21,937 nt of DNA from a virus. The notes under the pieces were generated by a model. The model was not told the DNA's origin and searched no databases. It was given only the letters and a program-made list of their open reading frames with translations. The position numbers and the translations under genes are program-made. Below are positions 7,969 through 21,797 of this stretch, piece by piece; within the stretch, counting starts at the first letter, position 1, and every line of letters begins with the position of its first letter. The stretch lies in the IMG/VR virus record IMGVR_UViG_3300020175_000063, positions 1 through 21,937 of that record, one strand, 5' to 3'.

Positions 7969-7976
7969 TATTTATA
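7969..7976 (-). promoter_or_regulatory. T4-type late promoter for the leftward baseplate operon
   Basis: The minus strand reads TATAAATA, an exact match to the T4 late-promoter consensus. It lies about 31 nt upstream of the gp48 ATG, the usual distance for a short 5' leader. In T4 this element is read by RNA polymerase carrying gp55, with gp33 and the sliding clamp; a gp33 homologue is encoded at 13831-14064. Confidence 0.75.
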
Positions 7977-19609: not shown

Positions 19610-20188
19610 TTATCTTATAATGTCAAACGTTTTTGTTTCTTTTTTGATATTCTTCTTAGCATAATATGCACGTGAATATTCACGTTTCTTTTCAGGATTC
19701 TTAGCATAATATTCACGGGCCCGTTCAAGGACCCGTTCACGATTCTTAGCATAATATTCACGGTCCCGTTCATGGGTCCGTTCAAGATTCTTAGCATAAT
19801 ATTCACGTTCCCGTTCACGGGTCCGTTCACGATTCTTTTCACGCCATTCACGTGCATATTCAGGATGAAACGATACTCCCCCTTTCCAATTCCAATGATC
19901 TTCACCATACATAGGAGGTGGTGGAAATGCTACTGTGACATTATAGTATTTGTCCCAGCATTTTTCCTTACGATTGTCAAGCAATTTGTTTTCTAATTCA
20001 ATCATCTCTTGTTCGGTACCCATTGCGAGTATTCTTCTACGCATATAGGAAGGAATAGAGGTTTTGGTGAATGATTCCATTACATTAGACGAATGAGTGT
20101 ATGAATCATCTGGGGTTCCTTTGTGGTATCCCAGATAGAACATACGGTTTTTAGTATCAAACCATAGGTAGACGAATGCTTCTTTCAT
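19610..20188 (-). CDS. GIY-YIG-like homing endonuclease with a 15-residue repeat tail
   Basis: This 192-aa protein starts with FVYLWFDTKNRMFYLGYHKG (residues 5-24), a degenerate GIY-YIG pair in which Y-L-W and Y-L-G stand for the two motif halves, followed by DDSYTHSS. A helix with Arg50-52 and Glu63-66 (EMIELENKLL) fits the catalytic Arg and Glu of the family. HWNWKGG (98-104) resembles the DNA-contact motif found in phage HNH and GIY-YIG homing enzymes. Residues 113-180 are five 15-aa units built on REYYAKN, very basic and helical, likely DNA-binding. Homing endonucleases of this kind spread themselves into related phages by cutting a specific site. AAGGAGA precedes the start. Confidence 0.7.
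   Translation of the reverse strand: MKEAFVYLWFDTKNRMFYLGYHKGTPDDSYTHSSNVMESFTKTSIPSYMRRRILAMGTEQEMIELENKLLDNRKEKCWDKYYNVTVAFPPPPMYGEDHWNWKGGVSFHPEYAREWREKNRERTREREREYYAKNLERTHERDREYYAKNRERVLERAREYYAKNPEKKREYSRAYYAKKNIKKETKTFDIIR
19649..19852. repeat. 45-bp tandem coding repeat (four clear units, one degenerate)
   Basis: The plus-strand word TTAGCATAAT begins at 19656, 19701, 19746 and 19791, an exact 45-bp period; a degenerate unit follows at about 19836. The period is a multiple of three and keeps the endonuclease frame, giving the 15-aa REYYAKN units. A second frame on the same strand also stays open over the repeat, as expected for a 45-bp period. Units are adjacent with no spacers. Confidence 0.9.
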
Positions 20189-20205: not shown

Positions 20206-20625
20206 CTATTTTTCTGCTTTCTTTTGATATTCATCTTCAGACCCTGGATATTGCCACGCCCAGACAGCCACAGCAGCCATGAAACCGCCTGACCATAGAA
20301 CGGCAACGAGATTATAAGTGGTGAACCACAGAAAAGCGATCGAGGATGACATAACCACTATCATCGCGTACTTCATTCGTTGAGGGAAGATTCTCTTCTC
20401 AATCCAGTTCGTCAGAAAGGGCCCGAAGTGTTTGTGATTGTACAGGTAGTCGTGCATACGCTGAGAGGATTTAGAGAAACAATACGCAGAGAACACTAGG
20501 AAAATAGAGAACGGTATGCCAGGGGTGATGAACCCGATGTAAGCGAGACCGAGCGAGATCATCCCAGTCGAATACCACAACGCTTTTTTAATACGGGAAC
20601 TGGCGCTTTTTGAACTGGTTGACAT
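20206..20625 (-). CDS. DUF454 (YbaN-like) inner-membrane protein
   Basis: This 139-aa protein fits the DUF454/YbaN family: LGLAYIGFITPGIPFSIFLV (25-44), AYCFSKSSQRMHDYL, then NHKHFGPFLTNWIEKR and a closing membrane part. Membrane segments lie at about 16-50 (one or two helices), 86-101 and 105-124; the ends are polar. The function of the family is unknown. The start at 20625 lies 38 nt inside the bilin reductase gene, and there is no other Met before the first membrane segment, so it is co-transcribed and probably coupled with the heme oxygenase and bilin reductase genes. Whether it handles heme, bilin or something unrelated cannot be read from sequence. Confidence 0.82.
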   Translation of the reverse strand: MSTSSKSASSRIKKALWYSTGMISLGLAYIGFITPGIPFSIFLVFSAYCFSKSSQRMHDYLYNHKHFGPFLTNWIEKRIFPQRMKYAMIVVMSSSIAFLWFTTYNLVAVLWSGGFMAAVAVWAWQYPGSEDEYQKKAEK

Positions 20626-21262
20626 AATCTTCCTCTAACCCTAGTGAAACCATAACGTTTTTCGAGTTGGTATTTTCTAATTGATTCTTACAGTACTTAG
20701 CACGATTGTGGCTATAATCTACAATTCGCGCATGGTCTGATTGGAGTGGCGTCTTGTCTTCCAGTTCTTTGAACCATGCATGAAGATTTTCTTTGCCCAT
20801 ATGTACAAGATTTTTAATCTCGGTCACATCATCTGTTGCTCCTGCAACAACCATATGATCAGAGAATATTTCCTTTGCCCATGGCGGTAGATCTCTGGTG
20901 CGCTTCGGGATGAACGGTGCGACATTGGCTTTGAAGTCTTCACTCGCCTTAGAATAATTACCAGAGGTTGTGGGTGACATGTCATGAAAACATCCAGTCA
21001 CTTTGCGAGCGCCGCATATTACATCAAAACCATAGATAGGCATCGGATATTCACTCTTAGAGTAACACGCCACATGCATCATCCACATCTTCTTACTTTC
21101 TCTCATATCAATGATGGATATGTGTGCCAGATCAGTCTTCTCGGAAGCGTAGTAGTAGTTAGTATGTTGATCGACGACCTCAACGCTAGGCGACCCACAG
21201 TATCCACTCATTGTGGTTTTCAGATACTCACTGAAATCGATGAACTCATTCCACGCTTGCAT
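20588..21262 (-). CDS. pcyX: Ferredoxin-dependent bilin reductase (PcyX-like)
   Basis: This 224-aa protein belongs to the ferredoxin-dependent bilin reductases (PcyA/PebA/PebS/PcyX), which reduce biliverdin IX-alpha to coloured bilins. Visible features are the central MPIYGFDVICGARKVTGCFH (74-93) with Asp94 in FHDMSP where the family has its catalytic Asp, LPPWAKEIFSDH at 125-136, and the C-terminal RAKYCKNQLENTNSK, matching the family's Y-C-x-x-Q-x-x-N. It is a little shorter than cyanobacterial PcyA (about 240 aa). PcyX is the class reported with a heme oxygenase in uncultured oceanic phages, making phycoerythrobilin; I prefer it because of gene context, not a phylogeny. The start overlaps the heme oxygenase gene by 17 nt, so the two are coupled. 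Confidence 0.88.
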   Translation of the reverse strand: MQAWNEFIDFSEYLKTTMSGYCGSPSVEVVDQHTNYYYASEKTDLAHISIIDMRESKKMWMMHVACYSKSEYPMPIYGFDVICGARKVTGCFHDMSPTTSGNYSKASEDFKANVAPFIPKRTRDLPPWAKEIFSDHMVVAGATDDVTEIKNLVHMGKENLHAWFKELEDKTPLQSDHARIVDYSHNRAKYCKNQLENTNSKNVMVSLGLEEDYVNQFKKRQFPY

Positions 21263-21797
21263 TTGTTCGCATTTCCTCTAACTCTTCCATAATATCTATA
21301 TGATACCTAAAACCCTGCTTCACCTTTTCCGTGTTCAAGGTCAGGTCACGAATCGAACGAATACATTCTTGACGATCCTTAAATTTATACATGTGACCCG
21401 GAGTAGGAATGTTCTTTGCGATAATGCTCCCACCAAATACCATACCCAGATAGTTAAGATAGAAGTGAGAATTTAATGACTCTGTGTCATCTTCATCTTC
21501 GCCCAGAATATAATTTGAGTATCGAATCGCCGACTTAGGGGTGTCAAAAATTGATGGAATTTTACCAAGGGTTTCAAGATCTTTGACTATAGAATCACAT
21601 CTTGCCAGAGAAGAATGTGGGATTTTGTAACCCCTGTAAACTTCACCAAAAACTTCGATTGCTTCGAAGATAACATACTGGGCATTAAGATATCGAACGT
21701 AGTCCATGTCGGTCGTCTCACCGTTGAGAAGACGAAGAGCAAAGGTTGTTTCCTCTACAAGATCGTGTAACTCTTTAGTTTCTTCTCTAATGTTCAT
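21246..21797 (-). CDS. ho1: Phage heme oxygenase
   Basis: This 183-aa protein is a canonical alpha-helical heme oxygenase, which opens heme to biliverdin IX-alpha, CO and iron using reductant such as ferredoxin. His11 in IREETKELHDLVEETTF is the proximal heme ligand. The distal helix is SHFYLNYLGMVFGGSIIAK (110-128), with the Gly122-Gly123 pair that lets oxygen reach heme iron. It is shorter than cyanobacterial HO1 (about 240 aa), mainly at the C-terminus. The biliverdin would pass to the bilin reductase encoded immediately downstream. Its ATG overlaps the TGA of the preceding gene (ATGA), placing it inside a longer operon that enters from the right edge. Confidence 0.9.
   Translation of the reverse strand: MNIREETKELHDLVEETTFALRLLNGETTDMDYVRYLNAQYVIFEAIEVFGEVYRGYKIPHSSLARCDSIVKDLETLGKIPSIFDTPKSAIRYSNYILGEDEDDTESLNSHFYLNYLGMVFGGSIIAKNIPTPGHMYKFKDRQECIRSIRDLTLNTEKVKQGFRYHIDIMEELEEMRTNASVE

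Follow-up and report, generated by a model that had tools for sequence, protein, structure and literature searches.

Marine T4-like phages such as pelagiphage Mosig EXVC030M carry the hemO-pcyX cassette (Ledermann et al.), in which a heme oxygenase gene is followed by an overlapping gene for a PcyX-type bilin reductase. Tetrapyrrole genes are also phage-borne in the vAlaS/hemO/pcyA-X cassette (PMC11480375), where the additional enzyme, vAlaS, is a 5-aminolevulinate synthase. In bacteria, the hemO heme-uptake cluster of Acinetobacter (PMC10483418) has receptor, TonB and hemophore genes, no bilin reductase, and a gene of the DUF454 family directly behind the heme oxygenase. E. coli possesses a protein of the same Pfam family, YbaN, whose gene stands alone between priC and apt and belongs to the Fur regulon (PMC7157518, PMC10164565; predicted in PMC3224099).

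The DNA analysed here (the window, 21,937 bases in all) is a viral contig with family matches for gp2, gp4, gp5, gp48, gp53, the hub and gp32, head, tail and baseplate genes among them, which bears out the first-pass annotation of a T4-like phage. The nearest relatives of its gp32 are those of phage C48C1 and Methylophilales phage Melnitz, at 58-60% identity, and the gp48-like gene is preceded by an exact T4 late-promoter motif, TATAAATA (7969-7976, minus strand). In the window, as in Mosig, a PcyX-type reductase gene overlaps the end of the heme oxygenase gene before it. Mosig differs in lacking DUF454 throughout, and the two reductases share about 30% identity; the window belongs to a separate reductase clade, in which a DUF454 gene is joined to the overlap chain. 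The window shares with the vAlaS phages the family of its DUF454, which these phages carry next to vAlaS, although DUF454 goes unmentioned in the main text of the vAlaS paper (PMC11480375). It differs from the three-gene hemO-pcyA/X-valaS cassette in that no vAlaS (TIGR01821) is found in the window or in the records of its clade, the largest of which is 153 kb and any of which may be incomplete. The enzyme pair, rightly taken as known in the first-pass annotation, and phage vAlaS are thus already published. A constant DUF454 companion, or DUF454 as a partner of the pathway, was found nowhere in the literature searched, supplements and most subscription journals lying outside that search, and as far as checked the DUF454 link is new. 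DUF454 is named in seven papers, no title among which is on phages.

Table 1. Coordinates of the heme oxygenase, bilin reductase and DUF454 genes, their overlaps and the putative ribosome-binding hexamers in the window
Feature	Position	Strand	Basis
Heme oxygenase, HemO type, 183 aa	21246..21797	-	Pfam PF01126, solved heme oxygenases
Ferredoxin-dependent bilin reductase, PcyX-type, 224 aa	20588..21262	-	Pfam PF05996, structure 5OWG, alignment, tree
DUF454 / YbaN-family inner-membrane protein, 139 aa	20206..20625	-	Pfam PF04304, NCBIfam, helical model
17 nt shared by the end of the heme oxygenase gene and the start of the reductase gene	21246..21262	-	
38 nt shared by the end of the reductase gene and the start of the DUF454 gene	20588..20625	-	length common to nine DUF454 lineages
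AGAGGA Shine-Dalgarno-like hexamer before reductase start, within heme oxygenase gene	21274..21279	-	sequence
AGAGGA Shine-Dalgarno-like hexamer before DUF454 start, within reductase gene	20631..20636	-	sequence

Read along the minus strand, the heme oxygenase gene comes first, the gene for the ferredoxin-dependent bilin reductase (FDBR) second and DUF454 third, and the three reading frames and both overlaps lie exactly where they had been placed at first pass (Table 1). The presence of AGAGGA before both internal starts fits translational coupling; the overlaps and these hexamers together are consistent with the three genes forming one co-translated unit, and the proposal of a single overlapping unit is borne out. 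Purifying selection acts on each of the three proteins. A small minus-strand open reading frame (59 aa in relatives) lies upstream of position 21797 with its TGA overlapping the ATG of the heme oxygenase, so the unit may begin further upstream, at or beyond the end of the contig. On the other side of the unit, a reading frame at 19610-20188 contains internal repeats of about 90 bp and by eye resembles a homing endonuclease. A relative of this frame sits between reductase and DUF454 in locus L070, and it is absent behind DUF454 in some relatives; it is probably mobile.

The heme oxygenase matches Heme_oxygenase (PF01126) at 51.2 bits, against a curated cut-off of 23, and solved heme oxygenases with a best E value of 3e-6 (phmmer). 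Its proximal-His segment, ETKELHD (KELHD), and its glycine-rich distal-helix segment, YLGMVFGGS, align with the corresponding stretches of the solved enzymes. As a rough base rate, two records among 50,697 named phages match it. This gene is swapped more freely than its partners: in six loci (L004, L006, L008, L011, L012 and L016) the heme oxygenase is only 31-38% identical to that of the window, as against 62-73% for the reductase and 77-84% for DUF454. Locus L022 shows the reverse, the heme oxygenase being nearer than the reductase (heme oxygenase 61%, reductase 44%, DUF454 65%). Within the heme oxygenase gene of the window, a mosaic tract at 21370-21690 has about 75-87% identity to the near-identical contigs L050, L051 and L053, whereas its flanks are mostly 97-100% identical to them; in this comparison dS is 0.45 for the heme oxygenase versus 0.008 for the reductase, which suggests recombination or diversification of the heme oxygenase.

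The reductase matches Fe_bilin_red (PF05996) at 54.3 bits (curated cut-off 31), and its closest solved structure is PcyX (5OWG, E 1.4e-28), with PcyA behind at 6e-10. The predicted catalytic residues D52, H63 and D80 align with Asp55 of PcyX and with His88 and Asp105 of PcyA, and are invariant or nearly so in an alignment of 24 phage FDBRs. In a tree built from cyanophage PcyA, PebS, Mosig PcyX, 5OWG and the phage relatives, all 30 non-cyanophage rows, including Mosig PcyX and 5OWG, are split from the PcyA and PebS of cyanophages (100/100). The window reductase lies in a separate clade of 17 rows (100/100) beside the PcyX group, and 14 DUF454-linked reductases form one clade (95/90). Far from falling outside the FDBRs, the protein groups on the PcyX side of this tree, which supports its naming as PcyX-like; as the PcyA sequences in the tree are those of cyanophages and not of alphaproteobacteria, the grouping does not separate PcyX from the wider AX lineage (PMC10151467). 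Asp55 is the catalytic residue that marks PcyX (PMC11480375), and the PcyA published for phage CB_2 is without it. As the window reductase, unlike that PcyA, has the equivalent residue (D52), phycoerythrobilin is the expected and most likely product. At L010/L051 a frameshift splits the reductase gene of a contig that is otherwise 98-99% identical, indicating a pseudogene or an assembly error.

Family knowledge would have the heme oxygenase open heme to biliverdin IXalpha, with release of Fe2+ and CO, and the PcyX-type reductase would then convert biliverdin to a phycobilin, most likely phycoerythrobilin, with four electrons from ferredoxin. The donor is assumed to be a host ferredoxin because a Fer2 (2Fe-2S ferredoxin) domain was found among the related records in Mosig only. 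Neither a phycobilisome domain nor a ferrochelatase (PF00762) scored over cut-off in 22 related records. In Mosig (L047) the heme oxygenase and PcyX genes are accompanied by several 2OG-Fe(II) oxygenases, the 2Fe-2S ferredoxin and a gene annotated as ferrochelatase, an annotation that PF00762 does not confirm.

The suggested search of viral contigs for the same three-gene order, carried out with the reductase, returned 45 loci and found this order in many related contigs. DUF454 stands behind the reductase in the closer loci and is non-adjacent in the more distant ones, so that co-occurrence with heme oxygenase and FDBR is a feature of related phages and not of the window alone. Of the 17 loci at which the junction of FDBR and DUF454 can be read, 12 have an overlap of exactly 38 nt; they span nine DUF454 lineages, and the reductases sharing this overlap are as little as 44% identical. 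Together with the purifying selection this implies that the layout is not due to chance. Extra sequence separates reductase and DUF454 in L004, L012, L060, L069 and L070. The heme oxygenase-FDBR pair is found without DUF454 in the Mosig pelagiphage and in the records of L018-L020. In phages with distant reductases, DUF454 occurs next to vAlaS or near it at another place in the record, and in L090 and L110 the vAlaS-DUF454 pair is 2-4 kb away from the heme oxygenase-FDBR pair, on the other strand.

The DUF454 protein matches PF04304 at 91.9 bits (curated cut-off 35.1) but the equivalog of E. coli YbaN (NCBIfam PRK10527, NF007818) at 57.6 bits, below the cut-off of 163, and by these scores the two proteins would belong to a common family but to different equivalogs. 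Its model (pLDDT 87) is helical at residues 11-33, 40-53, 82-103 and 106-124, and shorter helices lie in between. A segment covering roughly residues 54-85, between helices predicted to span the membrane, is positively charged in the model and carries H64, which is invariant in all 53 phage rows and present in 6 of 8 bacterial rows. The segment may be cytoplasmic, and H64 could be a heme or bilin ligand. Fold searches with the model gave no informative match (best E 2.8 with Foldseek; best Z 5.7 over 71 residues with VIA-align), solved structures searched with a profile yielded just weak matches to ribosomal S2, and biochemical data on DUF454 were not found in the literature. Between the window and its more distant relatives the nonsynonymous divergence of DUF454 is 0.14-0.25 while the synonymous divergence is saturated, indicating that the gene is maintained. 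In the tree, all phage DUF454s form one clade (100/97), separate from the bacterial ones, inside which those linked to heme oxygenase and FDBR form a clade of their own (96/92).

DUF454 was also found beside a second enzyme. A first scan, seeded only from contigs with the heme oxygenase-FDBR-DUF454 order, gave 306 viral relatives, and among the best 80 of these the DUF454 locus was next to heme oxygenase-FDBR in 26 cases, next to vAlaS in 35, next to both in 2 and next to neither in 17. The alternative neighbour is a 5-aminolevulinate synthase by its match to TIGR01821 (549 bits versus a cut-off of 339), and it usually overlaps DUF454 by 4-14 nt. The reverse scan with vAlaS gave at least 571 relatives, of which 75 of the best 80 have a DUF454 within 4 kb; the other five contigs stop within 0.4 kb past vAlaS. 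Two further DUF454 scans found vAlaS at 50 of 80 and 13 of 16 loci, plus one locus with vAlaS and heme oxygenase-FDBR, numbers to be read knowing that the queries of scans A6 and A7 had themselves been found via vAlaS and that the scans return best-scoring relatives only. At the remaining loci DUF454 is beside structural, peroxiredoxin or other genes. With near-copies removed at 90%, 66 DUF454 groups are left, and in 48 of them DUF454 is next to a tetrapyrrole gene. The first scan had led us to consider a near-exclusive adjacency, which was dropped when the second showed phages with a non-adjacent DUF454; the association is hence stated as co-occurrence at the genome level. The records of L082, L128 and L041 have an in-frame stop in the vAlaS reading frame, which is either decayed or misassembled.

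The earlier proposal of DUF454 as a membrane partner of the bilin pathway that could export or place the bilin, or deal with heme or iron release, thus stands in part: the gene does adjoin heme oxygenase-FDBR, but it is not specific to bilin genes. Being found more often behind 5-aminolevulinate synthase, it has a distribution that a bilin-only role does not cover. The loci beside structural or peroxiredoxin genes might be taken to indicate a bystander, a general phage membrane protein of lysis or superinfection control that lies downstream by chance. This appears highly improbable, as phages have DUF454 next to two unrelated tetrapyrrole modules and bacteria next to one, and the co-occurrence has no exception among the long records tested: at least one of heme oxygenase and vAlaS is encoded in 15 of the 15 DUF454-query records above 90 kb (L078, L082, L090, L103, L114, L121, L263, L274, L276, L281, L285, L292, L295, L311 and L320). 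Moreover, 14 of the 19 records without an adjacent tetrapyrrole gene encode heme oxygenase and/or vAlaS elsewhere, and the 5 that have neither are fragments of 21-40 kb. Nor was DUF454 seen among named T4-like phages, in which heme oxygenase is largely missing, a further point that makes a bystander role unlikely. The named phages that match DUF454 are bacterial contigs (Acinetobacter phage MD-2021a) or unannotated records, and the AlaS matches listed among the 50,697 named phages have 30-35% identity, the annotated ones being enzymes of the biotin and threonine pathways. The genes near DUF454 in L281-L314 include, as judged by eye, AhpC- or AhpD-like ones and those for glutaredoxin and ribonucleotide reductase; heme oxygenase or vAlaS is encoded at a distance in these records.

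As the two enzyme systems that DUF454 partners are unrelated and share only tetrapyrroles, the simplest common role is the handling of tetrapyrroles at the membrane. On balance we lean towards reading the locus as a co-translated heme-to-bilin module with an inner-membrane, tetrapyrrole-handling DUF454, which would serve the alternative 5-aminolevulinate synthase module as well. The protein would move or hold a tetrapyrrole at the membrane, be it excess porphyrin, heme or the bilin product, and export or detoxification is somewhat favoured over import. We infer the enzyme products, the electron donor, and the transport or tethering activity of DUF454 with its direction. One might alternatively see in DUF454 an anchor or scaffold that tethers the heme oxygenase, the reductase or AlaS at the inner membrane, where heme is delivered. 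The fixed gene order and the overlap with the reductase agree with such a role, and in the model the positively charged 54-85 segment with its invariant H64 could contact soluble enzymes. We nevertheless consider tethering rather doubtful: next to a nearly unchanged DUF454, heme oxygenases are only 31-38% identical to that of the window, and AlaS is an unrelated partner, which makes a conserved specific interface unlikely. A tetrapyrrole-handling DUF454, as the third gene common to the heme oxygenase-FDBR and vAlaS modules, would introduce into phage tetrapyrrole metabolism a membrane step that has apparently not been considered so far.

The bacterial DUF454 genes bear on whether this role extends to the family. 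In an Acinetobacter contig deposited as phage, the genes for TonB, heme oxygenase and DUF454 (ybaN) are consecutive, with 28 nt between the last two; in the Acinetobacter hemO cluster, which has the same gene order, the last gene is listed as a hypothetical protein (PMC10483418). The Acinetobacter DUF454 falls among the bacterial proteins and not within the phage clade, and the adjacency of heme oxygenase and DUF454 has thus probably arisen at least twice, as far as the tree can tell. Heme oxygenase and DUF454 are also both enriched near genes for T11SS outer-membrane proteins (PMC12282271). Unrelated genes surround several DUF454 genes of rhizobia, sphingomonads and Deinococcus as well as another one from Acinetobacter, plasmid DUF454 genes are in mixed contexts, and the four plasmid records with a heme oxygenase show no overlap with the DUF454 records listed. 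E. coli K-12 is not known to have AlaS or a heme oxygenase of the window type. An iron homeostasis function, in which DUF454 would handle the Fe2+ released by heme oxygenase or aid iron or heme uptake, with the bilin as a by-product, would agree with the Fur regulation of ybaN, with the Acinetobacter heme-uptake cluster, with one Rhizobium DUF454 adjoining an FTR1 iron-permease locus and with the increased expression of a DUF454 gene in iron-starved Avibacterium (PMC7970244). It is the less likely reading all the same, as AlaS, the commonest phage neighbour, makes 5-aminolevulinate with no release of iron, and as DUF454 has no strong metal-site pattern apart from one invariant His. The phage associations suggest a part in the handling of heme or porphyrin for the DUF454 family, to which YbaN of E. 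coli belongs, thereby offering a testable function for a family of unknown function that E. coli keeps under its iron regulator Fur. The broader proposal, of DUF454/YbaN as a widespread inner-membrane family of transporters or membrane chaperones for porphyrin, heme or bilin that became the fixed companion of heme-synthesis and heme-degradation genes in phages, is tentative, its chances falling a little short of even.

Some of the records concerned appear to be misassigned. L048 and L229, both Acinetobacter phage MD-2021a records, resemble bacterial chromosome contigs, with cheA, dapE and the hemO cluster. Conversely, a scan of genome contigs gave three metagenome bins, at least one of them with vAlaS-DUF454 and probably a misbinned phage contig; L130, a 335 kb contig of a Neomarinimicrobiota metagenome bin, carries the vAlaS-DUF454 pair and is probably such a misbinned phage.
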